Below, piece by piece: positions 4,878-31,584 of a DNA stretch of 64,000 nucleotides. Every line of letters begins with the position of its first letter. Position 1 is the stretch's first letter. The DNA is from a virus, in IMG/VR virus record IMGVR_UViG_3300022908_000003, positions 1 through 64,000 of that record, one strand, 5' to 3'. The position numbers were made by a program, and so were the translations under genes. The notes beneath the pieces are model-generated. The model had not been told where the DNA came from and searched no databases. It saw only the letters and a list, made by a program, of their open reading frames with translations.

Positions 4878-7151
4878 TTAAACCACTCCCTCTGTCGTCT
4901 TAACTTGAAGGCGACTAAGTTTCTTTCGAGGCAGTAACTTACGTTCTTCAGGATAGTACAAAGGAACTCCTTTAACGCTACGATCTGGTTCATTTTCTGC
5001 ATTTACTACTCTTTCTCCGATAGTAGGAGGTGCTATCTTCTTTACTATTCTTATTTTCTTCTGTCTATCTCTAAACTGTACCTTAACCATTCCGTTTATT
5101 CTTCGTAAACCAGATGTAGCCCATAGCTTAGAAATATCTGAAGAAGGATAGTATTTCATAATAGGCGCGCCTCTCCCAGCAGGATTTTCAAATTTCCTAA
5201 TGAAGATAACACCTAATTCTTGGAGATCCTCTAACTGATCTCTTAGTGTAGACTTAGCTAATGAACAATCATCAGATAGTTCCTGTAATGTTTGTCCAGG
5301 ACTTTCCATAAGAGAGGCTATAGCTTCTAAATTAAACCCTACACATGTGTCTATTGCAACTCTTGAGAGAATACGATACTCAGTTAATCCAATAGACGGA
5401 GGGCTATTAATTAGAGAAAGCCCCATCAGGAGTTTCGTTAATTCTTTTGCAACTCTTGTGCCTACTTCTTCTTGTGGTCTGTATAGCAGTTTTCTTTCAC
5501 CTTTGAAATCTCTCTCTACCGTAGCTCTAAGTTTTGCTACGATCTGAGCTAAAGCAGATATTCTATCAATATCACTATCACTTATCTCAGGTACATCTTC
5601 TTCAAAGTTTACATTAACATCAAGGAAAGACCTAGCTATATCAATTAACTCTTGTCGAATAACTGCACCTTTACCTACAGATTTTATAGCTGCGCGTATA
5701 GGGTCACTATGATCTAAGTTGCATCCCTTTATGACATGCATCATAAGGAAACGTTCTCCAACTACAGAATTTCTTTCAGCATATATTGCTGGAGTAACTC
5801 CAGTAACTACATTGAAATGTGCTCTATATCTTCGAGTAATTCCATTGCCAAAAGGCTTCTCTACTTCCCCGTCATAAGCCCCTCTAAGTGTACCATATAT
5901 TTCTTCTTTACTTATTCTTGGCATTGATAGAATTTCTGTGAAATCCTTCAGAACAAGAGTTTTACCGTCTAGTGTTGGCAGAATACTTGGATCATGCCCC
6001 CCACCTTGCACAAACCCGCTCACAAGGGCATGAGGGGTCATTGTAGACATGAAATGGCAAGTAAGACAAGCTGATATACTTGTAAGCAAAGCGGTTTTAG
6101 CTGCCCCCGGTGGAGCAACAATATGCACCCATAACGGGTCATCTGGAATATTTGTGGATAACACTACTGCATAAATTACACGTAATGCATCTTCCAGGTC
6201 CGGGGTCATTTTAAGGAACTTGCGATAAACCGATAATACAGTTTTGAAGCTAGGCCGGTTTCCAGATTTAATTGGATTATTTTTAATCTGCTCTTGTTTT
6301 GCCTGGGCTTTTTCTTGATCTGATGAATACCTTGCAATAAGGGAAGAGAATTCTTTAAAATCTGGTTTTTCTTTGGTAATGTATTCACGTATGTCATAAC
6401 CATCCTGAGTTGTGGCTGGCCATACCAAGTGCAATACCTGTGCAGCACGATCTTTGATTTTTTCATAAACTCTTGCTTTACCTTTAGTTCCTGGACTATC
6501 ATTATCATAACACAGTACAACTTTCTTACCTGCTAGATATTCTGTCCATGCATCTTGCCAAGTTCCAGCACCAGGAACACCTAAAACAATTCCGGTTTCC
6601 GTTTCTCTGGTGAGAAAATCTCTTAAACAAATTTCATCCCATCTTCCCTCGCACAAGTAAACAGTATCGCTGTCATTATCTGATAAAGTTTCTAGACCAA
6701 ACAGTGAAACGCTAATAGAGGGTAAACCCTTTACTTGATCATTTAAATGGTATGTTAAAAGATTAATTAAAGCTCCTGCGGTATTCCTTACAGGAAGTAT
6801 ATATCTCCAACCATCATGCACTATTCCTTCTTTACGTAGAAGTTTTACATTCATGCCTCTATTGTCTGCAAGCTTCTTCATTGCTTCTGCTTGCAAACCT
6901 CTAGTTCTTATCTTCTCTTGGTACCATTCGTTAATAAATGTGTATGTGTTGCCTTTCTTAAAACATACTTTACATTCCCACATTGCTACAGTGGTTGTAT
7001 TAAAGTTAATGTAGAGTTTATTCCTTGCACCACAGAACAAGCATTCCCCATAGGCTTCATTACCTACTACTCGTTCTTCGTGGTAATCAAAGCCAAGAGA
7101 ACAGAAAGTTCTAAGCTTTAGCGGAACATCATTCTTTGATCTTGGCATCAA
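4878..7151 (-). CDS. Primase-helicase-like protein: zinc finger, TOPRIM, AAA-type ATPase
   Basis: 757 aa. An N-terminal zinc finger has CLFC and CKVC near residues 38 and 60. A TOPRIM domain follows at about 160-250, with YLCEGRWDE and VVLCYDNDSPGTKGK holding the acidic residues. An ATPase has APPGAAKT near residue 347 and VVGERFLMM, an arginine-finger-like sensor, near 455. A winged-helix-like part at about 610-660 includes LAKSTLRDQLEDLQELGVI. This domain order suggests it primes and unwinds at the phage fork. It differs from T7 gp4, whose helicase is RecA-type. Confidence 0.75.
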   Translation of the reverse strand: MMPRSKNDVPLKLRTFCSLGFDYHEERVVGNEAYGECLFCGARNKLYINFNTTTVAMWECKVCFKKGNTYTFINEWYQEKIRTRGLQAEAMKKLADNRGMNVKLLRKEGIVHDGWRYILPVRNTAGALINLLTYHLNDQVKGLPSISVSLFGLETLSDNDSDTVYLCEGRWDEICLRDFLTRETETGIVLGVPGAGTWQDAWTEYLAGKKVVLCYDNDSPGTKGKARVYEKIKDRAAQVLHLVWPATTQDGYDIREYITKEKPDFKEFSSLIARYSSDQEKAQAKQEQIKNNPIKSGNRPSFKTVLSVYRKFLKMTPDLEDALRVIYAVVLSTNIPDDPLWVHIVAPPGAAKTALLTSISACLTCHFMSTMTPHALVSGFVQGGGHDPSILPTLDGKTLVLKDFTEILSMPRISKEEIYGTLRGAYDGEVEKPFGNGITRRYRAHFNVVTGVTPAIYAERNSVVGERFLMMHVIKGCNLDHSDPIRAAIKSVGKGAVIRQELIDIARSFLDVNVNFEEDVPEISDSDIDRISALAQIVAKLRATVERDFKGERKLLYRPQEEVGTRVAKELTKLLMGLSLINSPPSIGLTEYRILSRVAIDTCVGFNLEAIASLMESPGQTLQELSDDCSLAKSTLRDQLEDLQELGVIFIRKFENPAGRGAPIMKYYPSSDISKLWATSGLRRINGMVKVQFRDRQKKIRIVKKIAPPTIGERVVNAENEPDRSVKGVPLYYPEERKLLPRKKLSRLQVKTTEGVV
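6594..6619 (-). repeat. Dispersed 26-bp element
   Basis: Gene-strand orientation inside the primase gene. It encodes FLTRETET between the TOPRIM strands. Confidence 0.65.
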
Positions 7152-7672
7152 ACATGCTCTTTCCAGATTACTTTATTAAACACGTCAACTAAATAATCTA
7201 TTACAGGTTCTAGTAACACCTTATCGGCATTTCCTGCTATATTAAGAATTTTTATATCGTTCATGACTATCCAAAGGGCAACTTCTTCAATAGGTCTAAG
7301 TTCTTCAGCATGTAATATAATATCTAATGATGGCTTGTAATAATCTCTTATTGCTCTTAGTGTACATAGTTCCCCTGGAGATTGAAAATTATATGCTAGT
7401 CTTATTGTACCATCCGAAGTTTGCACGTTCTTTCTGGTACGAGATCTGTAATCAGGGCAATCGTCTTCAAGGTGATATATTATTTTCTGTGAAGGTCTGC
7501 AACCATCCTTAGTTAAATAACCTTTAACAGTATGCCCACCGGTTTTTAAACCTACTCTTCTTGCTGCCATAAGCCCAGCTTGATCAACCCCAATTTGCCC
7601 TCCAGATATTACAGTTTCTAAATTATTATAGTTCCTTGTTAGAACTGGAGACTTCTTTATTTTGAACTTCAT
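7148..7672 (-). CDS. SLOG-fold / putative molybdenum-carrier-like protein
   Basis: 174 aa. After an N-terminal tag (MKFKIKKSPV), VISGGQIGVDQAGLMAARRVGLKTGGHTVKG gives the glycine-rich nucleotide-binding signature of the MoCo-carrier / SLOG group, though written here beyond the conserved core GGQIGVDQAG. LNIAGNADK near residue 150 is the second family motif. SLOG proteins bind nucleotide derivatives, and some sense defence signals. The start overlaps the next gene by 4 nt. Confidence 0.75.
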   Translation of the reverse strand: MKFKIKKSPVLTRNYNNLETVISGGQIGVDQAGLMAARRVGLKTGGHTVKGYLTKDGCRPSQKIIYHLEDDCPDYRSRTRKNVQTSDGTIRLAYNFQSPGELCTLRAIRDYYKPSLDIILHAEELRPIEEVALWIVMNDIKILNIAGNADKVLLEPVIDYLVDVFNKVIWKEHV

Positions 7673-8319: not shown

Positions 8320-8601
8320 TTAGTCAAACTCCTTGAAGAAAATGTACTCAACCCCCCCGCTTGCCTGGGTTGTCTTTTTTCTGGTGAGAAGACCAAATTT
8401 AACAAGCCGGTTTAAGCGTTGAAACATTGTAGTATGCCCTATAACCTCTCCTGTATTTTTGTAATGGTCTTCTACAATTTCTTTACAGCATTTACCTCGA
8501 CTAGTCTTAGGCATTACTCTAAATATTTGTTCAAGACGATCTGGAATATCTGTAGTTCCTCTACCGTCACAACAACGGCACTTTACTTTTACTACGCTCA
8601 T
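8320..8601 (-). CDS. Zinc-knuckle and winged-helix protein
   Basis: 93 aa. The N-terminal CRCCDGRG is a DnaJ-type half-knuckle. After it, HTTMFQRLNRLVKFGLLTRKK reads like the recognition helix and wing of a winged HTH. Probably a small DNA-binding regulator. LLTRKKTT is encoded by a weak element copy. Confidence 0.6.
   Translation of the reverse strand: MSVVKVKCRCCDGRGTTDIPDRLEQIFRVMPKTSRGKCCKEIVEDHYKNTGEVIGHTTMFQRLNRLVKFGLLTRKKTTQASGGVEYIFFKEFD
8368..8392 (-). repeat. Dispersed 26-bp element, weak copy
   Basis: Gene-strand orientation in the winged-helix gene. It lacks CTC before TGG and gives LLTRKKTT. Confidence 0.35.
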
Positions 8602-10853
8602 AGTTCTAATTTATATTCTCCTACTCCCCATGCTTTCTCTGTTACTGTTACTTCTACTGGCATTGGTACTTTCATTCTCCCTCCGTTGTCTTCCATAATA
8701 TTTACAATAGCTTTAGCAAAAGAAGGTTTGAAGTTCTTCTTGTCTCTCTCTATCTTAAGTTCATCATGGATAGTTAGAATAAGGTATGCTCCATGATTGT
8801 TCTTTGGTCCGAGAAACTCGTTGACACGAATTAGGCTATCCTTCATCATATCTGCTGCTGTTCCCTGGATCTTATACGACACTGCGCGATATGGGAAATC
8901 TCGATCTACTCGAAGCTTACGACCATATAAGGTATGAATGTAACCGTTCTTTTCAGCTTCTTTCTGTAGCTCACCCATATACCTCTTTAGCTCAGGAATT
9001 CTAGTATTGTATTCCTTATCGAAGATTTTTGCTTCTTTTAAAGTTGCATAGATCAAGTGAGTATATGAACCAGGCCCACCTCCAAATATTTTAGCATAGG
9101 TAATATGTTTACATCGCTGTCTTGCTAATTCCTTCTCTACAGATTTTTCTGCTAATACAATGTCATAATCAAATTGATCAAGCCACCACTCTACAATTTC
9201 TAGAACTTCTTTGGCATTTTGACCTTCGCCAAACTGAGCTATTTCAAAAGCCTTCTTTCTAGACCAATCAATTTCCTTCCAAACTTCCTTTACATGCTCA
9301 TTAGCAGGTTCTCGAAATAAATCTAGTGCCTGAATGACTGCCTTAAATGCAGCATCATTTCCTCTTCCTCCCCAAATTTGGTTAGACATAGCTTTAAATA
9401 AATCTTCACCAGAGAAAAGGGCATTTAGCATAACAGGGACTTGTGCAAGTTCTGCGAAAATCCTACCTTCCTGTTGCGAGAAGTCAAAGCCTAACCAAAG
9501 CTTGCCAGGACGCGGTACAAAGACCTTTGTTGAGGAATAAGACGCTGAGAGGCTTTTCTTTCCTCCTGCGCTTATCTGTTGCCCGTTAAACCCACCTTCA
9601 CCCCCTCCGCTAAATCGACCGGTACGAGTTCCACATTGATTAAATGACGGGTGTACCATAAACCTACCTGGACAGGCCGGATCTGGCATTAGAATTTTAG
9701 CAAATTTATTGAAGAAAAGACCTAACGTATGTTTAGCTGCACGATACTTTGCAAGTTCCTGTACAAAAGGAGAATGCATTAGTTCACGTAATGTATCTTT
9801 ATCGGCAGTTAGTTTCCCGGTCTTTCTATTACGTCGATCGGTTTCAAGACCTAACCCACCTTCTTCTGGTGGGAGATATAGTATTCTTAGAAGCTGTCTA
9901 CTGTCTGCTTTAAATACAGGAGTTTTCCAAGTCTTAGAAACTGTGCCATTCTTTAGTAATTTAGGCTCATACTTCTCCGGTGGAAACGGCTTCAGGTTTA
10001 ATTCTTCAATCATGTCTTGCATTTTGTTCATATGCACAAGAACATCACGCTTACATTTGATAGTTTCTTCTTTAAGAGATTTGGGGTCTATTCCAATACC
10101 GTGAAATTCCATAGTATTTACAATAGGCCATATTTTATTCATTTCCTTCCTATAGGTATTGTGTAAACTTTCATCACCAGAGACAATAGGCCAATAGAAG
10201 AGAAACAAAGCCATTGTTCTGAAGGTATCAAGCATACAGTATTTCTTGCAGCTATCATCATACTGATCAAAATACTTTGGTAGCCAATAATCTTCTTCGG
10301 TTTCTTCTCCAAGTTGAATAGTAAGCTGCCCTAAAGCTAATGCTCTTACATTATATGATCTTGCATGGTTTCTCCATCGCTTTACAAGATCTTTCAAATC
10401 CTTTTCGTCGTCATCAGGAATTTTAAGACGAACTTTAGAAAGCCACTTCAAGCCATAGTTCATTTCAAGAGTAAATGAAACTCTCGCACAAAATACAGTA
10501 TCGTGTATATTCAAAATACCAACAAGTTTGACAACATCAATGCCGCATTTTTTAAGCATTGCGCAGTCAAACTTGGAGTTATGAAATATTACACTGATAC
10601 CTTTTATTTTCAGAACTGAGATTATGTAACCAACATCTTCTTGGTTTACCGTTACTTCTCTGGTGAAAGGATTAACAGGCCATTGGCAATACCATCCATT
10701 GCCGTCTTCGTCGCACATTGAAATAGCAAAAGCAGCATCATTACCCCAATGATTTAAACCCGTAGTTTCTGTGTCAATTGCAACTAAATTACGGGGATTG
10801 AATAAATGATACTCCGACTTTATATGTCTAGTCTTCTTTATTCTTATTTTCAT
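8598..10853 (-). CDS. DNA polymerase, family A
   Basis: 751 aa. The N-terminal tag MKIRIKKTRH precedes a 3'-5' exonuclease domain (VAIDTETTGLNHWG near residue 24, IFHNSKFDCAML near 86). The polymerase domain has GTRTGRFSG, motif A as GFDFSQQEGR (near 460), motif B around KHITYAKIFGGG with AVSYKIQGTAADMM, and motif C as TIHDEL near 715. The 5'-3' exonuclease of cellular Pol I is absent, as in most phage enzymes. It is the likely replicative polymerase, acting with the primase-ATPase downstream. Confidence 0.95.
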   Translation of the reverse strand: MKIRIKKTRHIKSEYHLFNPRNLVAIDTETTGLNHWGNDAAFAISMCDEDGNGWYCQWPVNPFTREVTVNQEDVGYIISVLKIKGISVIFHNSKFDCAMLKKCGIDVVKLVGILNIHDTVFCARVSFTLEMNYGLKWLSKVRLKIPDDDEKDLKDLVKRWRNHARSYNVRALALGQLTIQLGEETEEDYWLPKYFDQYDDSCKKYCMLDTFRTMALFLFYWPIVSGDESLHNTYRKEMNKIWPIVNTMEFHGIGIDPKSLKEETIKCKRDVLVHMNKMQDMIEELNLKPFPPEKYEPKLLKNGTVSKTWKTPVFKADSRQLLRILYLPPEEGGLGLETDRRNRKTGKLTADKDTLRELMHSPFVQELAKYRAAKHTLGLFFNKFAKILMPDPACPGRFMVHPSFNQCGTRTGRFSGGGEGGFNGQQISAGGKKSLSASYSSTKVFVPRPGKLWLGFDFSQQEGRIFAELAQVPVMLNALFSGEDLFKAMSNQIWGGRGNDAAFKAVIQALDLFREPANEHVKEVWKEIDWSRKKAFEIAQFGEGQNAKEVLEIVEWWLDQFDYDIVLAEKSVEKELARQRCKHITYAKIFGGGPGSYTHLIYATLKEAKIFDKEYNTRIPELKRYMGELQKEAEKNGYIHTLYGRKLRVDRDFPYRAVSYKIQGTAADMMKDSLIRVNEFLGPKNNHGAYLILTIHDELKIERDKKNFKPSFAKAIVNIMEDNGGRMKVPMPVEVTVTEKAWGVGEYKLEL
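10643..10670 (-). repeat. Dispersed 26-bp element
   Basis: Gene-strand orientation in the polymerase gene. It encodes PFTREVTVN in a loop of the exonuclease domain. Confidence 0.6.
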
Positions 10854-14814: not shown

Positions 14815-16122
14815 TTAATCTTCGTTGTCATCTTCGGGAATGATGTTTACAATCTCACCAAATCCAACAACGTGTATTACTGCTCCTACCTTTACAGTGA
14901 CCTTTGAAGTAGCTTCGTTGATCTTAGTAACCTTACCCTTCAAGGTCTTCTTAGCATTCTTAGGGTCTGTGAACACAATTGTATTTCCTACCTCAAGTTC
15001 CTCTTCCTCTTCCTCTTCGTCTTCTTCATCTTCTTCGTCGCCGTCTTCAGTTTCCTCTTCGTCGTCATCTTCTGCATCTTCGTCTTCTTCATCTTCAACT
15101 ATTGCAGAAAGTTTAGAAACTTCTACTTCATCAAGGATGGGCTTCTTTGCAGTTCCTCCAACCCTGATTTTTGCGGTTTCGGTTGCTTCATCAATGGAGT
15201 GTATTGTACCGGTCTTGTCTTCTGTCTTAGCCTTCTTACCGATACCAGTTGTCACACTCCAAGAAACCTCTTGACCTACTTCAAATTCGGTACCTTCATC
15301 CTCGTCTTCTGTTTCGTCGTCTTCATCCTCTGCAAGTTCTGCAAAAGTTTTGGTAAAGGTCTTTGTCTTCTTACCTACCTTAACCTTGATAGAGACGGTT
15401 TCCTCTTCTTCATCGACGGCAGAAACAATTCCGGTAAGTTCCTCGCCATCCTCTTCAAAGGTAATTTCGTCGCCTACCTCACATGGCGCTTCTGTTTCGT
15501 CATCATCTTCAGGTTCCGGTTCTGGAGTTTTTGTAGCAGGCTTCTTAGCCGAAGAGGTACTTGATGGCTTCACTCCAGCTTTTGACTTCTTTGGGGTTTC
15601 GGTTTCTGCTGCCTCATACCCTTCTTGACGCTTACCTAGATTAAACCACTGTCGTGGCTCTGTATAATTTCCAGTAGCGGCGGTAGTTTTCAGCTTGAAC
15701 AGGAAGACCGGTTCTTCATCAAGACAATTCTGTAAAATTTCCTCAAACTGCTCAATATCCAAATCTGATGGGTCTTGATCTGTCATTAATCCAACTTGAC
15801 GTACAAGTCTTGGATTAAATTCACCATTATTGTCAAGAAGGAAAAGCCACTGAGGGTAAACTTCGTTTACATGATCACCTTCTTGGATAGCCCAAGATAG
15901 CAGAGCACCCCAAACTTTATCTTCATCGGGTAAATCCGCAGTATCTTTAGTAGGCTTGATCTCGAAAGCGGCAAACTTTCCGATATAGTCGCCGTCTTCG
16001 TAGACATTACCTCCACCCTTCTTAGCTGCCTCTACTGTCTGATCCCAATTCTCCTTTGCCTTTGCAAGGAGAGCCTTATAACCGGTAACTACTGCTGCTG
16101 TCTTTTTCTTAGTAACTGACAT
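14815..16122 (-). CDS. SSB-like (DUF669-type) protein with acidic repeat tail
   Basis: 435 aa. Residues about 35-165 (VYEDGDYIGKFAAFEI...WFNLG) resemble the phage DUF669/SSB-like OB domain. After a Lys/Pro/Ser linker come three SH3/KOW-like repeats, each with 'VGxxxxF/S...GxVxxIxExxxxxxVxVG', separated by Asp/Glu runs of 20-30 residues. An acidic tail is typical of single-strand binding proteins. Here it is greatly enlarged and mixed with folded repeats. It has its own leader with an element and its own terminator. Confidence 0.6.
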   Translation of the reverse strand: MSVTKKKTAAVVTGYKALLAKAKENWDQTVEAAKKGGGNVYEDGDYIGKFAAFEIKPTKDTADLPDEDKVWGALLSWAIQEGDHVNEVYPQWLFLLDNNGEFNPRLVRQVGLMTDQDPSDLDIEQFEEILQNCLDEEPVFLFKLKTTAATGNYTEPRQWFNLGKRQEGYEAAETETPKKSKAGVKPSSTSSAKKPATKTPEPEPEDDDETEAPCEVGDEITFEEDGEELTGIVSAVDEEEETVSIKVKVGKKTKTFTKTFAELAEDEDDETEDEDEGTEFEVGQEVSWSVTTGIGKKAKTEDKTGTIHSIDEATETAKIRVGGTAKKPILDEVEVSKLSAIVEDEEDEDAEDDDEEETEDGDEEDEEDEEEEEEELEVGNTIVFTDPKNAKKTLKGKVTKINEATSKVTVKVGAVIHVVGFGEIVNIIPEDDNED

Positions 16123-16201: not shown

Positions 16202-16366
16202 TTACTGTAGGACATTTGAGGTGTCGTTGAGTTTGTTAGAAGCAGTGCCGCCTAGAAATCCCATGGCGGCTATTGCAACAACTCCGATAAGTGCAACAAG
16301 AAGAACGTATTCAACTATTGTTGCTCCGTCTTCATCCTGTATAAACCGATTGTAGAATGTTTTCAT
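16202..16366 (-). CDS. Flp/Fap-type (type IVb) pilin
   Basis: 54 aa, read directly from the minus strand. A short basic leader (MKTFYNRFIQDEDG) is followed by ATIVEYVLLVALIGVVAIAA, a membrane helix. GATIVEY has the prepilin-peptidase arrangement of Flp pilins: cleavage after Gly, then Glu at +5 and Tyr at +6. The length matches the family. Flp pilins form Tad adhesion pili in bacteria. No Tad secretion gene is present, so a host-supplied machinery or a different use must be assumed. The start directly follows the upstream TAA. Confidence 0.75.
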   Translation of the reverse strand: MKTFYNRFIQDEDGATIVEYVLLVALIGVVAIAAMGFLGGTASNKLNDTSNVLQ

Positions 16367-16504
16367 TTATCCTTCTTTTTTACTAGGATATAGTTTCTGT
16401 GCTTTCTTTAGTTCTGAGTTAGTTGGCAACCTGCGATTTTTTATAGTAAATCTAGCTATCCATATTGGATCTACTGATTGCAGCAGTTTACTTCTAAGCT
16501 TCAT
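16367..16504 (-). CDS. Small basic hypothetical protein
   Basis: 45 aa, starting MKLRSKLLQSVDPIW and ending LYPSKKEG. Rich in Lys/Arg. The stop abuts the pilin ATG (TAAATG), and GAAGGA within its end serves as the pilin ribosome-binding site. Not recognised. Confidence 0.5.
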   Translation of the reverse strand: MKLRSKLLQSVDPIWIARFTIKNRRLPTNSELKKAQKLYPSKKEG

Positions 16505-17422
16505 TTATTTTGCCTTGAATTTAGCCTTTCGCTCAGATAGTTTTGGTTTCCTTTTTAAGATAAACTGTTCTTCTTGTTCATTGTTGAAAGCGGCCATGAA
16601 GTTTTCAAAAGCTTCTTCTTTGCTTTCACCCATTGGAACAGCATGTACAATTTCTCCAGAAGTTGTAAGGAAATGCCCTTCTGCTCTATTCCCTCCATCT
16701 ATCGTCTGAGATCCTTCAATACAAAGCCATCTTTCCATTCCGAAGTAACCGTAGTAGATTGTTGCATCCGCATCACCTTTTATGAACAACCGTGCAGGTT
16801 CGCCCATGGTAGGAATTAGCTTATTATATTTAGCTCCAGTTTCTTCTTCGAATTCTTTGGTCTTTGCATGACTGATATATACAATTCCTCTACCAGTGGC
16901 TTTCAAGTCCATAAAAGGTTTCTTGAATTCCATTTCTACAAGGTCTTGTCCGCGTCGATAGGCAAGTTTCCCTTCATTTATACTCTTTTCATTGTGAAGT
17001 TCAAGAATATATCTAACGCAAAGAACATATGCAAGATCGGCAGTGTCTATTATGATATTCTCATATAGTTCACTACTGCAAATTTTCTCTACAATAGCCT
17101 TGAATTCTTCCCATGAAGACATGCTACCCTTTAGTGGTAATCTCTTGACTGACAGGTATTTAACTCCATCTTCAAATACAAGAAATAAACAATCAGGGAA
17201 CATGGATGCAAAACTACTCTTACCAATTTTCTCTTCACCATAAATGAGAAGGGTGGCACCACCCAAACTTGATACAGGTTCAGAAAATTCTGTAGGGAGT
17301 TCTATATCTTTTGCTCTGAAAATCACGGGTCGCTTACGTGCAGAAATTGCAGTAACGGGCTTTCGCTTTGTCGGCAGAGCAGCAGAACTTTTCCCGCCTG
17401 ATCGACGGTTGATTGTTGCCAT
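16505..17422 (-). CDS. RecA-like ATPase, Sak4 / AAA_24 type
   Basis: 305 aa from ATG 17422 (AAAGGT upstream). The frame is open to a TTG at 17494, but that stretch is leader. LIYGEEKIGKSS near residue 57 is the Walker A motif, and NIIIDTADLAY near 125 is Walker B. IVYISHAKTKE follows as a RecA-like strand. It belongs with the phage Sak4-type annealase/recombinase ATPases that work with an SSB and a RecB-like nuclease, both present nearby. It ends in a basic tail (KRKPKLSERKAKFKAK). Confidence 0.75.
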   Translation of the reverse strand: MATINRRSGGKSSAALPTKRKPVTAISARKRPVIFRAKDIELPTEFSEPVSSLGGATLLIYGEEKIGKSSFASMFPDCLFLVFEDGVKYLSVKRLPLKGSMSSWEEFKAIVEKICSSELYENIIIDTADLAYVLCVRYILELHNEKSINEGKLAYRRGQDLVEMEFKKPFMDLKATGRGIVYISHAKTKEFEEETGAKYNKLIPTMGEPARLFIKGDADATIYYGYFGMERWLCIEGSQTIDGGNRAEGHFLTTSGEIVHAVPMGESKEEAFENFMAAFNNEQEEQFILKRKPKLSERKAKFKAK

Positions 17423-17554
17423 AATATATTTACCTTTCGCTAATATAGAGACGTATCCTTGTACGCTTGTCCATATCGCTATGATAGTTGTCAAAGAGCC
17501 ATCAGGAAAATGCCCGGCACTATGGCCGTTCGGGGTTTCCTGCCGACACCTAAG

Positions 17555-17892: not shown

Positions 17893-19107
17893 TTATACCT
17901 CTACTAGTTCAGGAAATACATGAAGACGCTTATGATAGTACCTAGCTTCGGCAGGGTTAGCACAAGCTTGTAAGAATTCACAAGGTCTGTTCCATGCTTT
18001 ACAAGAAGCTGTATTTCTAAAGCTATTCTTTGGGTTTTCGTTCTGCCATTCATAAAGACGTTCTAGGATATAGTCTAGATCGATATCACGATATTCTTCA
18101 ACATCTTTCCATGGGATTGATTGGGGATGCCTGTAGAAATAGTCATTAGGATTTTCTTTAATATGCTTATCAACTCTTGCAAAGAATTCAGGTAGCGTTT
18201 CGGGTTTTCTATAGTAGGTTCCGCTATATTCCTGCCCTGGTTTCTTTATTAGGTTGTATAAAACCCCTTTCGGCTTCTCTTTGTACACATACTCCAAAGC
18301 AAGCATGTACACCATAACTTGCAGTTCAAAACCAAGACGATCTAAAGTAACTTTATCTTTTATATCTCCTTTGGTCTTACTTTCGAATAACCACAATTCT
18401 CCATTTTTATTACGAAATACTCCATCAAATTTTCCACGAATTTGTATAGTAATTCCGTTTCGTAGCTTATAAGGCATAGAGAAGACTTGTTCTACAGCAA
18501 GCCAGTTCATATTAACGTCTGTCTTGTAGTGTTGGTAGTACCTCTTCAAGACAACATTACATAGACCATTGGTTTGCTGAAAAGACTGTTGATCTTTGAG
18601 ATCAAATTTCTTTAATTTCTTTACTATATCTAAGCTACTTGAAGTTAATACATGATCTATGGTCTGATATATAGTCTGTGTAGTAGATTGAACTTTATAC
18701 TTCTTACGATGAAGATACACCTTATCGAGAGTATTATGAAAATGATCCCCAAAATCTAATGCTGTATCAGGTCTTGTAGTTTTCTCAAGCCCTAGTATCA
18801 TCTTCCAATAACACTTCATAGGACAAAGCGCAAATAAAGCTATTGTAGACTGCGTAACCCCATCTCTCCCCATATCCCAGAAATTACGTAAATACTGTGG
18901 TTTCCCCGTTTTCTCTGGTGTAGAAATACCTGATCCTTTGCAAACTCTACAAGAACCACTACTAGAAGGATCTTCTCCTGTTCCTTCGCAGTATTTGCAA
19001 ACATCTTCAGGTATTTTTACCATTTTCGGTTTTTGATTTAAAAGGAAATTTAAATCCTTTGTTAAGTTGCTTGAAATCTGTTTCGATTTCAGTTTAATTT
19101 TTACCAT
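17893..19107 (-). CDS. PD-(D/E)XK nuclease (RecB/Cas4-like) with zinc knuckles
   Basis: 404 aa. Tag MVKIKLKSKQI, then CKYCEGTGE and CRVCKGSG knuckles near residues 39-62, then a linker STPEKTGKP made by an element copy. The nuclease follows: QSTIALFALCPMKCYW, LDFGDHFHNTLDKVY (catalytic His), LWLFESKTKGD (E-x-K), and LQVMVYMLALEYV, the QxxxY motif. C-terminal Cys (CKAWNRPC, QAC) may join CPMKC in an Fe-S site as in Cas4/AddB. Likely supplies 3' single strands for the Sak4/SSB pathway. Confidence 0.8.
   Translation of the reverse strand: MVKIKLKSKQISSNLTKDLNFLLNQKPKMVKIPEDVCKYCEGTGEDPSSSGSCRVCKGSGISTPEKTGKPQYLRNFWDMGRDGVTQSTIALFALCPMKCYWKMILGLEKTTRPDTALDFGDHFHNTLDKVYLHRKKYKVQSTTQTIYQTIDHVLTSSSLDIVKKLKKFDLKDQQSFQQTNGLCNVVLKRYYQHYKTDVNMNWLAVEQVFSMPYKLRNGITIQIRGKFDGVFRNKNGELWLFESKTKGDIKDKVTLDRLGFELQVMVYMLALEYVYKEKPKGVLYNLIKKPGQEYSGTYYRKPETLPEFFARVDKHIKENPNDYFYRHPQSIPWKDVEEYRDIDLDYILERLYEWQNENPKNSFRNTASCKAWNRPCEFLQACANPAEARYYHKRLHVFPELVEV
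18899..18927 (-). repeat. Dispersed 26-bp element
   Basis: Gene-strand copy giving STPEKTGKP between the zinc knuckles and the nuclease domain. Confidence 0.8.
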
Positions 19108-19821
19108 TTAACTTCCTTCCTTCTTAGTTCCCAAAACCTTTTATAGATTAATTGTAGTCTAGGCACATAAAGGTTATATGTGTGTGAGCCAATTCCTCCA
19201 TTTCGAAGAACATAGGAGGGATGTATAATTGTGTAGAGCTTTTCCTGACTTACCCCATAATCAAAAGGTACTATTGTATCTTTTAAATACAATTCAGCTT
19301 CTTTCCCTACACAGACTACTATAGTTGGTTTAAGAACTTTAATCATAGATCTTAGTCTAGGAAAGCAATTTATAACTTCTGAAACAGAAGGTGGTTTATT
19401 AGCTGATGAAGAAGGCTTTCCTTGATATGGTCTACAAGCTATTAAATTTGTTAAACCTATGGTAAGTCTTCCATACCCTTTACAAAACTGGCAAGCCTGA
19501 GTACCAATAGGAAAGCCATTATCAGCACCGGAACCATCACAGAAAGTACAGAAAGGCTGCGCATCCTCTATAGCTTGTCTGAGAAGCTTTCCAGCAGGGC
19601 CAATGAAAGGAAATCCTTCTAGATCTTCCACCAGACCCGGACCTTCACCTACCATTAAAATATCTACACCTTGTTTTGCTCCAAATGCCAAAACAGTTTT
19701 AGGTATTGTGTCTAATAAACACATGGTGTCTTGCAGTCTCTCCTATCTTACATTTAGTACAAGAACTCCATTCATCTTGAATTACTCTAAGACTTAGACG
19801 TTTAACGGGAAATTTTGCCAT
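19101..19821 (-). CDS. Uracil-DNA glycosylase (family 4/5-like), frame change near 19720
   Basis: Main frame (19724-19101): VDILMVGEGPG, FPFIGPAGKLLR, LTNLIACRP and TIIHPSYVLRN are UDG motifs. An inserted pair of knuckles (CTFCDGSG, CQFCKGYG) lies in the middle. The main frame lacks the N-terminal Cys pair of the Fe-S cluster. Another frame, from ATG 19821 with GGGAGGTGA 5-6 nt upstream, encodes MAKFPVKRLSLRVIQ and WSSCTKCKIGETARHHVF, exactly that missing part. A +1 shift near 19720-19730 joins them. It may be a programmed shift, a mutation or an assembly error. Confidence 0.75.
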
Positions 19822-20110
19822 CTAATGTCACCTCCCAATTCTCAGTCACATACCTACCATCTCCACGAAAGGTATTAATTATCTCAGAGATTTTCAGTTC
19901 CCCGACATCTAACCTTCCTAGAGTAAATTTAGTATTTGGATACATTACTTTCATGCACCCATGAACGTCTTGTATAGTTGCATTTTGATGCCATAGTAAT
20001 ACTCTTTGTTCACCTGGAAGATTAAGCAACCATGCGGTACATAGGCAAGACCTAATAGGTACAGCGCAACTATATCTTACTTTTCTCTTTCTATTTATTT
20101 TTACTTTCAT
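19802..20110 (-). CDS. Hypothetical protein with basic tag
   Basis: 102 aa, starting MKVKINRKRKVRYSC. The rest has three Cys and reads as a small alpha/beta domain. The final strand (ENWEVTLDGKISR) overlaps the start of the glycosylase gene by 20 nt. Not recognised. Confidence 0.55.
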   Translation of the reverse strand: MKVKINRKRKVRYSCAVPIRSCLCTAWLLNLPGEQRVLLWHQNATIQDVHGCMKVMYPNTKFTLGRLDVGELKISEIINTFRGDGRYVTENWEVTLDGKISR

Positions 20111-21061: not shown

Positions 21062-21257
21062 TAAGTTCCATTTCTGTTTGAAGGTTATATTCCCCTACTA
21101 CACAGACTTCTATTTTCTTTGCATCTGTTGCAAATTCTATAATAGCTTCAAGTAAGTCTGCTTCAGCATCCGTTAATTTTCTTACATCAGCATTTAATGT
21201 AACTGCTGGAAGAACTTTACCTTCCTTATCGGTTATCTGGTACCTATATTGTTTCAC
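21051..21257 (-). CDS. Hypothetical protein
   Basis: 68 aa, one alpha/beta domain (YQITDKEGKVLPAVTLNADV, then an acidic helix and strand). Not recognised. It overlaps the helicase end by 14 nt and the next gene by 11 nt. Confidence 0.55.
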   Translation of the reverse strand: MKQYRYQITDKEGKVLPAVTLNADVRKLTDAEADLLEAIIEFATDAKKIEVCVVGEYNLQTEMELNGQ

Positions 21258-22674
21258 GTTTTTCTATTCTCCTTTTCATTCTATCTTCCATTTTGCGAAG
21301 GAAGAGTTTACTGTTCATTATCTTATCTTGTACAGTCTCTATAACATCTTCATCTCTACTATCTTGCATAGCGAGGAAAATATAGAGAAGAGTATTTTTC
21401 TTTAGAGGGTGTACTATTCTATCCATGAACTGCGTCATTTGATCGCAACTAGGAACTACTGAATAAAATATCATTGTGTCAGATACAGACATGTCAACAC
21501 CATATTGAGCTACTTTTCGTATTTGAGATATAATAGCTCTACCTGGAGTTTTACAAGTAGTAAACCAGTTCTGTTTACGTTTTCTTTCTTCTCTGCTGTC
21601 TGCTCCAGTTAATGTGACACATGGGATTTTAGCTTTCTTTAGTCTTTTCTCAAGTTCAAAGATCTCTGCATTAAAATCGCAGCCAATTACTACAGGTTCT
21701 CCGGTAAGTTCGCCTTTGAGCAGAGTTATCAATTCATCAACCTTACCCGGCCATTTGAATACCTCTGCATTGGCTTCAAAACCACCGCAGACGCGAGAAA
21801 GCCATATTGAACGGGTTGTTGCCAGGTCCGTCTCTATTTCGCCCTTGTCCGTGTCAGCTACGAACAGGGTTTCTATCTTGTTGTACACCCTGCGTTGCTC
21901 TTGCGTCATTGGTACGTAGCGAATACTTCGAACAGCTTTCAAAGATCCAGCACCTACATCTTTTCGAGTTAATACAAAAGATTTACTATGAACTGCCTCT
22001 TTGATAAGCTTGTACTTACCGGGTAATAACTCCCATCCGCCCCATTCCCTTATATCAAAAAATTTAGCTCTATACTGCCAGAAGTCCGTACAACCCATGA
22101 AAGAGCCATGTAGAAACTTATATTGCTGAAATAAATCTAGCTCACTCTCTGTACGAGGTGAGCCGGAAAGAATAGACCTATGTTCTGCATCTCTAAAGCC
22201 AAGAGTGCATAGCTTACTAATCTTGGCTTTAGGATTTTTTATTACAGGACTTTCGTCAAGAATTACAATAAACCATGGCAGAAAGGAAAGACCTGGAGTT
22301 TCACGCAAACTATCGTAGTTAATTAACACCCATATAATCCTGCCCTTTTCCATATGGGCGCGATTAACTACCATTTCTGTACGCTTATCAAAAGTCTTTC
22401 CGTGAACTACAATGTACTCTTCTCCTTCCTCTTCTAGTTCTTTCTCCCATGTCGCAATAACGCTAGTTGGAGCTACAACCATTGCCGGGAAAGATCTGTT
22501 AGATTTTATTCTATAAGCTGCTCTGAACTTATCTTGTGCCCATCGTATTTTTGCAAGTGTCTTACCAAGTCTCATTTGCATAATACAGGCAGGGTGTGTA
22601 AATTTCTTACTCCAATCAAGATACTGTTTCTGTTGGGGTAGTAGCTTGCGTGTTGTCTTGACTTTGAATTTCAT
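21244..22674 (-). CDS. SNF2-type (superfamily 2) helicase
   Basis: 476 aa with tag MKFKVKTTRKLL. MQMRLGKTLAKI near residue 35 is motif I, VVAPTSVIATWEKE is motif Ia, IVILDESPVIKN near 137 is motif II (DESP rather than DEAH), and LSGSPRTESELD is motif III. The second lobe has VIGCDFNAEIFELEK and, near 400, QYGVDMSVSDTMIFYS with QFMDRIVHP (motifs V and VI). Phage SNF2-like helicases of this size act in replication restart or recombination. There is no accessory nuclease domain. Confidence 0.85.
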   Translation of the reverse strand: MKFKVKTTRKLLPQQKQYLDWSKKFTHPACIMQMRLGKTLAKIRWAQDKFRAAYRIKSNRSFPAMVVAPTSVIATWEKELEEEGEEYIVVHGKTFDKRTEMVVNRAHMEKGRIIWVLINYDSLRETPGLSFLPWFIVILDESPVIKNPKAKISKLCTLGFRDAEHRSILSGSPRTESELDLFQQYKFLHGSFMGCTDFWQYRAKFFDIREWGGWELLPGKYKLIKEAVHSKSFVLTRKDVGAGSLKAVRSIRYVPMTQEQRRVYNKIETLFVADTDKGEIETDLATTRSIWLSRVCGGFEANAEVFKWPGKVDELITLLKGELTGEPVVIGCDFNAEIFELEKRLKKAKIPCVTLTGADSREERKRKQNWFTTCKTPGRAIISQIRKVAQYGVDMSVSDTMIFYSVVPSCDQMTQFMDRIVHPLKKNTLLYIFLAMQDSRDEDVIETVQDKIMNSKLFLRKMEDRMKRRIEKRETI

Positions 22675-23007: not shown

Positions 23008-23673
23008 TTATTTCCTTTTCACAGTTTTTACAGTACGTTTTGAAGAAACCGTTTTCTCTGGTGAAGAAACTATCAATTCCCCTGTTCCATCACAGGTTTT
23101 ACATTCTTCGTCTTTTCTGTCATCCCATCCAGAACCTTTGCAGACTTTACATTCTTTAGTGGTACTTAGTTGTTGTAGTTCATTAAGACTATCTTCACCG
23201 GCTTTCTTTGCTACTCTTGCAATAATTTTATGGTCTTCTTCGCTTTTTGTTATTCTTTCTTGTCTTGATAGTAACTTAATTTTTATAGGCTTTGTTTCTT
23301 CCTTTGGTTGTTGTACTCCTTTTGACAGAAGACCCAACCCTTTATCAGTGAGTTTGTATTTTCTACACCAGAAGTCTTGAAAACCTAATTGAGTTGCTTT
23401 CATATGTCCTAGATGTTCCAACACCCTTAGATCATTTACATCTATTTCTGTAGAAAATCTAACATTCTTGCTTGATAAAGCCATGTTGCAATCCATAGCA
23501 GTCATCCAAGAGTTACCTAAATATTTCCAAGCACTTACTGTATTTTTTAATCTTTCTGACCATGGAGTAAGAGGTGTTCCCATATGAAATGATTCTAGCA
23601 ACTCTCTAGGGTCTTGCGGTTCTTTAACTACTTCATCAGAAGGGGGGATTGGTTTTTTGATTTTTATCTTCAT
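23008..23673 (-). CDS. Zinc-knuckle protein with basic tags at both ends
   Basis: 221 aa. Tag MKIKIKKPIPPSDE, then a winged-helix-like region (VNDLRVLEHLGHMKATQLGF), an internal KPIKIKLLS, and a DnaJ-like pair CKVCKGSGWDD / CKTCDGTGE near 180-203. An element-encoded linker (SSPEKTV) and a basic tail KTVKRK follow. The knuckle-then-element order is the same as in the PD-(D/E)XK nuclease. Probably nucleic-acid binding. Family not recognised. Confidence 0.6.
   Translation of the reverse strand: MKIKIKKPIPPSDEVVKEPQDPRELLESFHMGTPLTPWSERLKNTVSAWKYLGNSWMTAMDCNMALSSKNVRFSTEIDVNDLRVLEHLGHMKATQLGFQDFWCRKYKLTDKGLGLLSKGVQQPKEETKPIKIKLLSRQERITKSEEDHKIIARVAKKAGEDSLNELQQLSTTKECKVCKGSGWDDRKDEECKTCDGTGELIVSSPEKTVSSKRTVKTVKRK
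23046..23070 (-). repeat. Dispersed 26-bp element
   Basis: Gene-strand copy giving SSPEKTVS directly after a CxxCxGxG knuckle. Confidence 0.7.
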
Positions 23674-24023: not shown

Positions 24024-24353
24024 TTATACAGGTACTCCTAACGCTCTCTTCATATTAGAGAAAATAGACATAGAACGAATTCCTTCGTTGTTGAACTTCT
24101 TTGCTTTCTTGCCACACAAAGCACAGTAGATACCTTCGCTGCACTGAGACACAGTGCCAAGCCTTATAGCATTATTAGACTTTTCTTCTGATAAATCTAC
24201 AGAAATCTTATGTGTTACCTTTAACTCCCAAATTTCACTACCGCAATGTGAACAAATTTTTGGTTGCCCGACTTCTCTGGTAGAAGAATTAACTACAGTC
24301 TTTCGCTTTGCAATTGAATGAGGTGTCTTATTCACCCGGAACTTTACCGCCAT
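24024..24353 (-). CDS. Zinc-ribbon protein
   Basis: 109 aa. Start MAVKFRVNKTPHSIAKRK, a tag-like stretch. SSTREVGQPK from an element copy then leads into CSHCGSE near 34 and CALCGKK near 77, a four-Cys ribbon with a long insert. Probably nucleic-acid or protein binding. It overlaps the first operon gene by 10 nt. Confidence 0.55.
   Translation of the reverse strand: MAVKFRVNKTPHSIAKRKTVVNSSTREVGQPKICSHCGSEIWELKVTHKISVDLSEEKSNNAIRLGTVSQCSEGIYCALCGKKAKKFNNEGIRSMSIFSNMKRALGVPV
24262..24288 (-). repeat. Dispersed 26-bp element
   Basis: Gene-strand copy, frame STREVGQP, between the N-terminal tag and the zinc ribbon. Confidence 0.8.
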
Positions 24354-24715
24354 TTCTTTTCTTCCTTCTTTCGCTTAATCTTGATCATGACTTTATGAGT
24401 GCTGCAATCTGGAGTAACTTCTGTTTTAGGTCTTTCTCGTTTGACCTTAAATTTTGGGGGTTCTGGATTTATTAATCTATCAATGTACTTTGTGGCTAAG
24501 TCTATACCTCTCCTTTCAGCTACACAGCCTTCTGCATTTTTTATGATACATATTGAACCTGCACCTTCTACAAGTTCAGTATATACTATTATCTTGTAGC
24601 CCCTGTAATAAAAAGTCTTCGCTTCGGTTTTGATTACTTGCTTCTCAGCTTCGCTTCGCATTCTATTATAAATTACAGAAGAGAGAGGCTTTTTCATCGT
24701 AGCAGCTTGCGGCAT
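24344..24715 (-). CDS. Hypothetical protein with two basic tags
   Basis: 123 aa, first full gene of the leftward replication operon. A small alpha/beta domain (YYRGYKIIVYTELVEGAGS, ICIIKNAEG) is followed by PPKFKVKRER and VMIKIKRKKEEKKWR at the C-terminus, the densest use of the tag. The start lies 1 nt after the leader ORF stop. Not recognised. Confidence 0.55.
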   Translation of the reverse strand: MPQAATMKKPLSSVIYNRMRSEAEKQVIKTEAKTFYYRGYKIIVYTELVEGAGSICIIKNAEGCVAERRGIDLATKYIDRLINPEPPKFKVKRERPKTEVTPDCSTHKVMIKIKRKKEEKKWR

Positions 24716-25785: not shown

Positions 25786-26062
25786 AAGTCTGTACCGAAT
25801 TTTCTGTAGAACTCTCGGAAGTTATGTCTACCGGAGCAGCCATATTATCCATTTTTACTGTACTAGGTGAGTTAATTATAGCATGTACAACTTCGCTAGG
25901 TACAGTTCCATTAGCGGAGTTTACTGCATTATTTACTATTCTCTCCTGTGCTTCTTGATGTTTCTGAGATATTTTCAGTGCTGCGAGTATACCTCCTACG
26001 GTTGTGAATAGTTGGATAACCTGTTCCGGGGTCCAATGTAGTAGCCACTGCGTTAGCGTCAT
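25784..26062 (-). CDS. Holin-like small membrane protein
   Basis: 92 aa. WTPEQVIQLFTTVGGILAALKI at about 11-31 is one amphipathic to hydrophobic helix, followed by a charged coil (HQEAQERIVNNAV) and a polar tail. Size and layout fit class III-like holins or their regulators, and another membrane protein lies upstream. It overlaps the upstream frame by 134 nt. Confidence 0.45.
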   Translation of the reverse strand: MTLTQWLLHWTPEQVIQLFTTVGGILAALKISQKHQEAQERIVNNAVNSANGTVPSEVVHAIINSPSTVKMDNMAAPVDITSESSTENSVQT

Positions 26063-26480
26063 TTATTTCTCCTATTGTTAGTTCGAAAGCGGCTGTTACC
26101 ATATCTTTTGAAGGAAAGTCAGCATGTCTAAGAAATGTAAATATCTGATCTTGAGCTAAAGTAAGCATTACTGGGTTTTTCTTTATAATGTTTACTAAAG
26201 TAGATATTATACTCATACATGCTAAGGTATCTTCAAAACAATCTTTACCTTTCTCAATAGAGACATTAGCCTTTTGTACAGTCTCTATAAGTTCTCTAAA
26301 ATCTTCTTTAGAGAGAACTTCCATTTCATCTAATTCTGTCTTACCTTCTTGATGCCTTTCTAACTCTTCTTTTGCTGCTTTTTCTGATAGCTTATCGCCA
26401 AGTTTTTTTAGTAACCCCACTCCTAGAACCACTACACCGCCGACTATCTCATTCAGTTGCTCGCTTGATAAGACCATCAT
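25929..26480 (-). CDS. Hypothetical protein, possibly lysis-related
   Basis: 183 aa. It starts MMVLSSEQLNEIVGG with a short hydrophobic segment (VVVLGVGLL), then a long helical region. The last 45 residues (Arg/Thr/Ser-rich, YPTIHNRRRYTRSTENIS) lie in the 134-nt overlap with the next gene and look unconstrained. The gene may end earlier in other strains, or a frame change may join the two frames. Confidence 0.45.
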   Translation of the reverse strand: MMVLSSEQLNEIVGGVVVLGVGLLKKLGDKLSEKAAKEELERHQEGKTELDEMEVLSKEDFRELIETVQKANVSIEKGKDCFEDTLACMSIISTLVNIIKKNPVMLTLAQDQIFTFLRHADFPSKDMVTAAFELTIGEINDANAVATTLDPGTGYPTIHNRRRYTRSTENISETSRSTGENSK

Positions 26481-27027
26481 TAGATTTTATTACTTTCCTT
26501 ACTTCATCGCGTGATCGCTGTTTTCGCAATCTTATATAAGATGATCCAGAAGTAATTGTAAAAAATAGCATAAACTTCCATGTTAATGAATAGCTTACAC
26601 TACCCCACATAGAAATTGCCATTACTAGAAGTAACATAGTAATGACGAACATTAAGCTAGTTCTTGCCTTTATATTATCATTTACTAAAGCAGCTAGGTG
26701 GGCGATACTGATAGAGATTAATACTGTCATCCATAGAATATTAGCTTCATTTTCTGCAACACCTAGCTTAGTAAATAGGTTGAACATCCCATCATATACT
26801 CGGTTATGTGTACTTCCTGCGAAGTTGTTTAACATGTCACTGAACACAATTATTACAGCTAATACACTAGCTACTTCTACTAATTCTATATCCTTTTCCC
26901 AAAATAAAACTTTAATTCGAAATTTTAGAAAGTCATGTCTATCTACTGTCAAGTTAAGGAAAGATCTTAGTGAAGTATGCCTTACTCCATGAGCCTTATT
27001 ATCTGGTTCTAGATTTGGAACTACCAT
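26449..27027 (-). CDS. Multi-pass membrane protein
   Basis: 192 aa with about four hydrophobic helices (VEVASVLAVIIVFSDML, LWMTVLISISIAHLAAL, LMFVITMLLLVMAI, FMLFFTITSGSSY). Soluble basic ends flank them. Its position at the end of the late block beside the holin-like gene suggests a lysis role, but no family is recognised. AAGGAAATC lies before the ATG. Confidence 0.55.
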   Translation of the reverse strand: MVVPNLEPDNKAHGVRHTSLRSFLNLTVDRHDFLKFRIKVLFWEKDIELVEVASVLAVIIVFSDMLNNFAGSTHNRVYDGMFNLFTKLGVAENEANILWMTVLISISIAHLAALVNDNIKARTSLMFVITMLLLVMAISMWGSVSYSLTWKFMLFFTITSGSSYIRLRKQRSRDEVRKVIKSNDGLIKRATE

Positions 27028-27946: not shown

Positions 27947-30265
27947 TTAAATATGGAAATAGGTAATCATTACGTTATCACCTGTTTTTGTTGGGTAAGT
28001 TACTAAAGTAAGTGTGTCAGATACTATAGTATAGTCCACTGTGTAATCCAGAAGAACACCGTTAAAATAAACAAACTCTGTGTCTGTCAATGGTGCATAG
28101 GATAAGGTTAAAACAGTATCTCCATCTGAAGCTATTGTAAATACTTCTCTAGTCGGAGAACCTGAAGTAACAATAGCTGCAACATCTGCAACCAAAGCAT
28201 CCTGAGTAGCTTTATCAGCATAGTAAGGTTGCGCAGGTTGTATGTAAACTTCTTGTGGAACTACGTCATCTGGATTTTGTAGAATAGAGACACATTTAAT
28301 AAGTACTGTTTGTCCTGCCAGAGAAGAGGCAACTGTAAATCTTGATACCCCCGCATCTAGTTTTACAAAAACATCTGTAGAAGTATGTCCTGTAGCAAGT
28401 GTTCCTCTTTGCTCTCTTAGAAAGGTCTGTAGAGTATAGTGATCAGACGAAGTAAAATCTGCTTCAGCAAAGCCTAATACTTCGTAGTTACTCGAATTAT
28501 CTACACTCTGGTCAAGCTGAGTAACTAATATGTATTCCCCATCTCCTGCTTTGACTTTAGCTTTAGATGTAGTCTCCAAACCAGTTCCGGGATTTATAAT
28601 AACATCTAATGTATTTACTATGTCAAATCCATCTGCATCAGGAGTATAGCTTGCAGAAAGGGTGCTTGCTACAGAACCAAATCCACCTTTATTTGTTAAG
28701 TTGCCTAATTTACTATAAGTGCTGCCACCATCAACTGACATTAAGACTACAGCACCTCTCCATAGTCCTGCAATTAAGTAAGCTGATCCTACTACATAAA
28801 TTCCGGTATTTGTGCTGTCATTGTTGCGGAGTTCTTTTCCAGACCATGCAAAGAATGTGGTAGGGGAAACAGGAACATAAACATAACCGCCACTTGGTAT
28901 TGATGGAGGTGCTGTCTGTATTAGTACATTTTCGTCATCGTTAACAAACTTCAAATCAATAGGACCGGGGGTACCTGTTTCAGCTTCAGTTACTCTAACC
29001 CTCTGTAGTGTACCTTCTTCGTCTATCTGAAGTAGTAAAACGTCTGAAGGAGTGAGTAAAGCCCATCTAGGAACTGCGCTACCTGAATGCCCAACACTTT
29101 CAACCCATCTTATGTATAAACTACGCTCTACAACTTTCTTTGCTTCAGCATCTTTAAGAACTAAAGGTAAATTTATACTCTCATAATTATTGTTTTTTGC
29201 TGATATTCTTATAGCTGTTTGAGTTGCAGACTGTAGGTTATTAGTAGTTGATAGATACCCTAGATCAATCTTCTTAGGTAGATTAATTCTATCAGGTCTT
29301 GTTGTAGTTAGCCTATCAGTAACGGCAGGACTTCCGCTATCAACTATCTGAGCACCTAAATCGTCCCAAGTTAAAGTACCTACTGGATCTCCACCTCTAG
29401 GTACAGCTTTTATAGTTCCATTTACGTCTATTAGATCAACATTATAGGCATCAAGTAGAGGCTGAACTGAAGACTTTGCATCAATTCTTGCACTCATAGT
29501 CATGCCTGTTATTTGAATATCTTCTACCAGAGAAATGTCAACCTGGCTTTCATCAATACCTACTTGAGTGAATATATCAAGGAATACATCGGATAAAAAA
29601 CAATCTTCTGTTTCTACTTCTATAGAAAAATTAGGAAGTGCATTTCCAAAATCAGATAGCTCCATATTTTCTATAACCATGTAGTTATAGCCTCTAAATG
29701 CTGGAGCATCTGTACCCGCTGGAACGTCATCTGTTGCTGCACTTGCTATTATTAAAGGGTCTGCATCTTGCGTTTCTGTACCAGGATAAAATCTAGGATT
29801 AATTCTATTTTCGTCCGAGGTATGTGAACTATCATACATTATAACATCATTAGCATATATCTTCTTTACTACATTAGTTGTGTTTCTATTGCCCTTACAA
29901 ACTAGCATAGCAAAAGATATAGTATATGAGTACACTGTAGTTGTTACGCTAGGTCCGCCGGAACCTCCACCGCCTTGAGATTGTTCAGTTTTATGTTCTA
30001 CAAGATTAGTACCCCATATGATAATCCCAGGTACTTTGTTATGCCCCCAGCACTGAGGTATAGAAGTTCCATATGAAGCTGTAGTAACTACAAGATCCGA
30101 AGTCCTGCCCATATCAGCGGTATGGTAATGAGTATTAGCTTGATCAATATAAGCTCCTACTGTAGAACCTATAGAAAAACCTAACATAGCTCCTTTAACA
30201 GCCCCACCAGGACCAGCTAATAAACCTCCAGCAACAGCACCAGCAACACCTAGAATTATTTGCAT
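27947..30265 (-). CDS. Tail tip / baseplate hub protein
   Basis: 772 aa from the ATG with GGAG 9 nt upstream. A TTG at 30280 and an ATG at 30274 are alternatives. A Gly/Ala-rich N-terminus (GVAGAVAGGLLAGPGGAV) is followed by IPQCWGHNKVPGIIIWGTN, as in GTA and siphophage hub proteins of the Phage-tail_3 group. A Gly-rich linker and beta-rich domains come next. The C-terminal 100 residues resemble a tail-fibre attachment segment. Directly after the NlpC gene, as in GTA-type tail tips. Confidence 0.7.
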   Translation of the reverse strand: MQIILGVAGAVAGGLLAGPGGAVKGAMLGFSIGSTVGAYIDQANTHYHTADMGRTSDLVVTTASYGTSIPQCWGHNKVPGIIIWGTNLVEHKTEQSQGGGGSGGPSVTTTVYSYTISFAMLVCKGNRNTTNVVKKIYANDVIMYDSSHTSDENRINPRFYPGTETQDADPLIIASAATDDVPAGTDAPAFRGYNYMVIENMELSDFGNALPNFSIEVETEDCFLSDVFLDIFTQVGIDESQVDISLVEDIQITGMTMSARIDAKSSVQPLLDAYNVDLIDVNGTIKAVPRGGDPVGTLTWDDLGAQIVDSGSPAVTDRLTTTRPDRINLPKKIDLGYLSTTNNLQSATQTAIRISAKNNNYESINLPLVLKDAEAKKVVERSLYIRWVESVGHSGSAVPRWALLTPSDVLLLQIDEEGTLQRVRVTEAETGTPGPIDLKFVNDDENVLIQTAPPSIPSGGYVYVPVSPTTFFAWSGKELRNNDSTNTGIYVVGSAYLIAGLWRGAVVLMSVDGGSTYSKLGNLTNKGGFGSVASTLSASYTPDADGFDIVNTLDVIINPGTGLETTSKAKVKAGDGEYILVTQLDQSVDNSSNYEVLGFAEADFTSSDHYTLQTFLREQRGTLATGHTSTDVFVKLDAGVSRFTVASSLAGQTVLIKCVSILQNPDDVVPQEVYIQPAQPYYADKATQDALVADVAAIVTSGSPTREVFTIASDGDTVLTLSYAPLTDTEFVYFNGVLLDYTVDYTIVSDTLTLVTYPTKTGDNVMITYFHI

Positions 30266-31574: not shown

Positions 31575-31584
31575 CTGACTTCCT

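Follow-up and report, generated by a model that had tools for sequence, protein, structure and literature searches.

A lone Flp prepilin gene among the recombination and replication genes of a siphovirus-like phage, and Flp pilins in other viral contigs

A siphovirus-like phage, represented by a 68,053-bp IMG/VR virus record whose positions 1-64,000 (37.8% GC) form the window analyzed here, carries at 16202-16366 on the minus strand a gene whose 54-aa product is a Flp (type IVb) prepilin by every sequence test run. Judged from its sequence, this pilin could be cleaved by a host prepilin peptidase and built into a pilus. Its family membership, the anatomy of its maturation site, its lone occurrence and the recurrence of such genes in unrelated phages are demonstrated, and superinfection exclusion is the leading candidate for its function.

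The prepilin and its gene unit

The complete product of the ORF is MKTFYNRFIQDEDGATIVEYVLLVALIGVVAIAAMGFLGGTASNKLNDTSNVLQ, which divides at the cleavage site into the leader MKTFYNRFIQDEDG and the mature part ATIVEYVLLVALIGVVAIAAMGFLGGTASNKLNDTSNVLQ. The leader comprises residues 1-14 and ends on Gly14, and the mature part runs from A15 to Q54 (40 residues), beginning A-T-I-V-E-Y with Glu19 at +5 and Tyr20 at +6; the preliminary description, which had placed a 54-aa ORF with a Gly-then-ATIVEY site exactly here, was confirmed from the sequence. Its assignment of the protein to the Flp/Fap family also held, as Pfam PF04964 (Flp_Fap) matched residues 8-49 at 35.7 bits (E 7.7e-9), above the curated cut-off of 32.2. 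Gly14, Glu19, Tyr20 and Leu22 do not vary across an alignment of 21 sequences, the window pilin with 20 phage and bacterial pilins, and the alignment profile matched the Caulobacter PilA structure 8u1k at E 2.4e-14, compared with E 0.26 for the pilin sequence alone. The pilin has a single hydrophobic helix, with its peak window at residues 21-39. Structure prediction, which the preliminary description had called for, yielded an AlphaFold2 model with one helix over residues 2-53 and pLDDT >90 across the mature part; as modeled, the protein is short, one-helix and without a globular domain, as in Flp/Fap pilins. A Foldseek search of the model against the PDB returned 0 matches, a single helix being an uninformative query. 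The codon-position GC of the gene (0.56/0.33/0.36) is like that of the adjoining phage genes. A six-frame search of the whole record recovered the same place, 16202-16366, independently, and found no second Flp gene.

Caulobacter PilA has a 14-residue leader and a mature start at Ala15, and its Glu19 hydrogen-bonds to the backbone of neighbouring subunits (PMC11067988). The window pilin resembles Caulobacter crescentus PilA (8u1k, 8u2b, 8ucr) in its 14-residue leader ending on Gly, its Ala15, Glu19 and Tyr20 and its single helix, with 14 of 40 mature residues identical. However, its mature part has 40 rather than 45 residues and another C-terminal exposed half, and it is encoded by a phage that lacks Tad machinery.

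The pilin gene is the third of four genes on the minus strand, in the order Sak4, a 45-aa ORF, the pilin and an acidic 435-aa protein. Together these are a probable single transcription unit, a candidate operon that is backed by consensus sites in the DNA. The first gene (16505-17494) encodes a Sak4-like ssDNA annealing protein/AAA_24 ATPase (PF13479, 107.6 bits; phrog_124, E 2.8e-28), which probably starts at the ATG at 17422 and not at the listed TTG, because a ribosome-binding-like GAAAGG precedes 17422. The 45-aa ORF (16367-16504) has no assigned function and matched nothing in Pfam or PHROGs; its ATG comes immediately after the Sak4 stop, and the pilin ATG directly follows its own TAA, so that TAAATG stands at both of its ends and the tight coupling described earlier for the pilin is real. 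After a gap of 79 bp, in which no significant stable leader structure was found between the pilin and the downstream gene (z = -1.1), comes the gene for the highly acidic 435-aa protein (14815-16122; 115 D/E, 49 K/R), which has no assigned function and only weak family matches in Pfam and PHROGs. A promoter-like site lies upstream of Sak4 (17583-17555, minus strand; TTGACA, 17 nt, TATACT; 11/12 matches, with TG before the second hexamer), and a terminator-like hairpin of 17 pairs with a T tail follows the 435-aa gene (14805-14768, minus strand). Both are consensus matches only, of kinds found 7 times for promoters against 5.2 expected from shuffles and 3 times for terminators against 2.2. The acidic protein contains extended runs of D/E together with small, basic, beta-like segments that recur along it (KVKVGKKTKTF, KIRVGGTAKK, KVTVKVG); a relationship to the 181-aa gene that follows Sak4 in L004, a distant relative, was considered and rejected for want of any similarity.

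The preliminary description had spoken of a phage replication operon, and the Sak4-like annealing protein, a family A DNA polymerase, a helicase, an exonuclease and a primase are indeed encoded on the same strand. Membership of the pilin in an early-type replication/recombination unit is supported, and because the operon is of the early type, a part in host takeover fits better than a virion role. Elsewhere the record holds portal, major capsid protein, terminase and tail genes, including a GTA-like tail-tip module at 27947-32202 in gp12 to gp15 order (DUF2460, Gp84_N/BR0599, NlpC/P60, Phage-tail_3/Rcc01698_C). Its tail proteins are matched most closely by phages that infect Caulobacter, Rhodobacter, Brevundimonas and others; comparison of tail and terminase relatives by host places this module in phages of several phyla and so points to no single host. 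Neither a tyrosine integrase nor a serine recombinase was detected. The TadA-type/T2SSE ATPase (PF00437) and the A24 prepilin peptidase (PF01478), the markers of a Tad locus, have no match anywhere in the record, which extends the earlier remark that no tad gene is present here. A small ORF at 3490-3753 resembles, by eye only, an RlpA-like double-psi beta-barrel protein.

A short tag in which basic and hydrophobic residues alternate marks the start or the end of many of the phage's DNA-handling proteins; examples are MKIKIKKP, MKIRIKKT, MKFKIKKS and MKFKVKTT at the start and ...KFKVKR and ...RRFRVKR at the end. It occurs at the N-termini of the products of 7148-7672, 8598-10853, 17893-19107, 19802-20110, 21244-22674, 23008-23673 and 24024-24353, and at the C-termini of those of 572-958, 24344-24715, 16505-17494 and 48368-50200. 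By a pattern that was set after the tag had been seen, 10 of the 81 ORFs predicted on the minus strand start with the N-terminal form, compared with 3 of 312 Met positions inside ORFs (Fisher p 1.4e-5). It is possibly a docking tag, with the acidic 435-aa protein perhaps as its partner.

Relatives and recurrence of phage Flp pilins

In a scan of 84,980 species genomes, the closest bacterial pilins came from Armatimonadota, Acidobacteriota, Actinomycetes and Limnohabitans and shared 43-53% identity with the window pilin in the best segment; at no more than 53% identity, the gene was not taken recently from any of the species sampled. When viral contigs were scanned with the pilin, Sak4, terminase, tail protein and polymerase, no close sister of this phage was detected. 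The check in sister phages suggested by the preliminary description could be made on three distant Sak4 relatives (L002-L004, 26-28% identity), whose records contain no Flp gene. That description had also named a missing profile match combined with stop-codon loss in relatives as grounds for refuting its reading; a match exists, and the relatives are simply without the gene. Eight reference phages whose tail or terminase genes are related likewise have no Flp. Its absence from phages that share the GTA-like tail-tip protein and infect Caulobacter, Brevundimonas or Ruegeria counts against the reading preferred below.

Outside these relatives, lone Flp pilins are recurrent. A degenerate DNA pattern for the G-A-x-x-x-E-Y motif picked 39 IMG/VR stretches, and Flp scored above the family cut-off in 34 viral records besides that of the window; a second pattern, of GQG type, picked 23 stretches. 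PF00437 and PF01478 are absent from all Flp-bearing viral records tested, which among the GQG-type records means G004. Some of these contigs are certainly phage, and others may be prophage flanks. Among the former, G019 is a 147-kb myovirus with tail sheath, head protease and capsid proteins and a lone Flp pilin, and G015 is a T4-like phage with a type II topoisomerase and baseplate proteins, in which two different tandem pilins of 51 and 56 aa, overlapping by 4 bases, stand among a run of small genes (L092:8173-8495). In G036 the pilin is flanked by a terminase and an antiterminator, and in G012, G025, G027 and G041, which are similar to it in sequence, the pilin is likewise on the terminase side. 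L015 was tried as a window-like relative and rejected, as its match is weak (12.2 bits) and it groups with the GQG-type matches.

In four further phage types, represented by L121/L128/L132, L123, L138 and L134, the Flp segment forms the C-terminus of a 151-205-aa protein (L123:10-552; L138:10381-10935, minus strand; L128:31-486; L134:5529-6146, minus strand) with three further predicted membrane helices. The cleavage site is intact in these fusions as G|QGxVEY, where x is L or M, and against PF04964 the L123 protein reaches 40.6 bits, the others 20-31 bits, which is below the cut-off. A terminase large subunit is nearby, identified by profile in L123 and L132 and by eye only in L134 and L138. 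L117 has an unfused version, in which a free 50-aa pilin adjoins a three-helix protein that matches S-holin weakly, at 16.1 bits. To call the three-helix proteins holins would be to go by topology and position, as no curated holin family scores above its cut-off with them.

The window pilin is no closer to other phage pilins (22-41% identical) than to bacterial ones (35-44%), values that span only about 50 residues and that suggest separate captures by the different phages. Searches by tblastn of 50,697 phage records with five queries (the window pilin, one bacterial Flp, two viral Flps and one fusion protein) gave nothing at E up to 10, or up to 1 for the fusion, and PHROGs and NCBIfam contain no matching Flp family. 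Because a sphingomonad-type pilin query matched 90 plasmid records as a positive control, the absence of this pilin type from cultured phages is probably real; the window pilin query had only 6 weak plasmid matches, so its negative result in phages is the weaker one.

Candidate roles of the phage pilin

That the pilin alters or jams host pili to stop further adsorption is a quite possible reading, which we adopt tentatively. The pilin would be made early, co-transcribed with the Sak4 recombinase gene, and would insert into the host inner membrane, where the host prepilin peptidase would cut it after Gly14. The mature pilin would then join the host Tad pilin pool, and as a foreign 40-residue subunit it would co-assemble with the host pilin or compete against it, leaving the cell with altered pili, with fewer of them or with pili that do not retract. 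Most likely, the gain for the phage would be that the infected cell no longer adsorbs pilus-using phages. Since the phage has no pilus machinery, the pilin can only act in a host with Tad or similar pili, and we assume a Tad-positive host; with at most 53% identity to any bacterial pilin found, it may not fit the pilus of a given host. Tad pili serve as a phage receptor (PMC11067988), and type IVa pilus dynamics are governed by minor-to-major pilin stoichiometry, according to the available part of PMC13249403. D3112 gp05, DMS3 Aqs1, Pf4 pVII and QDWS Gp21 are phage proteins known to bring about exclusion by shutting type IV pili down (PMC11436027). The outcome proposed here is the same, with pili lost or altered and superinfection excluded; however, those four act on PilB, PilC/PilJ or PilA/PilB expression and none is itself a pilin subunit, unlike the product of the window gene.

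Lone Flp genes in unrelated phages are expected if such pilins act on host machinery, and their recurrence also counts against a mere passenger, that is, a host gene acquired by chance and retained without benefit. A 54-aa product is a small load, and no near relatives were found that would show maintenance or purifying selection. Nevertheless, we regard such a passenger as very improbable, as the frame, the invariant residues and the phage-like codon-position composition are all intact, the gene is embedded among closely packed genes, and the lack of any bacterial pilin above 53% identity excludes a recent capture from the sampled species. Equally improbable, in our judgment, is that the Flp helix serves lysis or its timing as a small membrane protein, possibly triggered by prepilin peptidase cleavage, and not in pili. 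This would suit the four phage types with Flp C-terminal to three-helix proteins beside the terminase, and the free pilin of L117 next to its neighbour with the weak S-holin match, but the window pilin belongs to a unit of replication type at a distance from the genes for tail and lysis and has no holin-like neighbour, and the three-helix proteins themselves fall below the curated holin cut-offs. Candidate membrane proteins of the window phage itself are encoded at 25929-27027.

The remaining explanations keep the pilin at the host surface or its sensors. An extra or variant subunit might change the adhesion or biofilm of infected cells or lysogens while leaving other phages unblocked, which we consider unlikely. 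In the available parts of the sources, Flp family type IVb pilins are listed, with no functional test reported there, for the Vibrio harveyi prophages phi345 and phiGANI1709, as an adhesion factor (PMC12482185), and for phiLM21-like prophages of Sinorhizobium meliloti (PMC12429752). They share with the window phage a Flp pilin gene in the phage genome, but they are prophages in which the pilin is listed as an adhesion or accessory gene, whereas the window phage has it in an early-type recombination/replication unit and has no detected integrase or serine recombinase. The latter makes lasting lysogen conversion unlikely, and the co-transcription of the pilin with replication genes points to transient use in the course of infection. 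It is also quite unlikely that the phage pilin, by adding to the pilin pool of the inner membrane, imitates retracted pilin and so pushes a motile, non-replicating host into DNA replication, as proposed for PilA/PleC in Caulobacter. PilA binds PleC at its transmembrane region, and cells that have lost pilA are late in c-di-GMP synthesis and in differentiation (PMC10790692, citing Del Medico et al. 2020); an action of recycled pilins on PleC has been proposed (PMC11067988). The window pilin retains the N-terminal mature residues, the most conserved part, and its gene shares a unit with a DNA-recombination gene. However, the PilA-PleC effect is known for Caulobacter only, and the window pilin is closest to non-alphaproteobacterial pilins.

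Prepilins as a possible phage strategy

Interference with host pili may be one instance of a recurrent strategy, in which phages that are unrelated, virulent as well as temperate, would each acquire a prepilin for the host peptidase and Tad machinery to process, with poisoned pili or a signal as the result, and in which fusion to a three-helix membrane protein could place some of these proteins under the control of cleavage; we hold this broader idea to be possible but somewhat doubtful. The other IMG/VR phages (G015, G019, the G036 group and L123/L138/L128/L134) share the Flp domain, but their gene neighbourhoods differ and some of their pilins are tandem or fused; the terminase-side and multi-helix-fused pilins suit a role as pilus decoy less obviously. 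No description of a phage-encoded pilin acting on Tad pili was found in the literature searched, a body that leaves most subscription journals outside.

Few type IV pilus systems are as widespread as Tad pili, which phages use as receptors and which also sense surfaces. If a phage subunit enters the pilus, this would be a new form of receptor control, exerted by a building block and not by a motor inhibitor. Collectively, the recurrence of lone Flp genes in unrelated phages and the fusion of some of them with membrane proteins point to a wider use of prepilins by phages, one that has apparently not been described.
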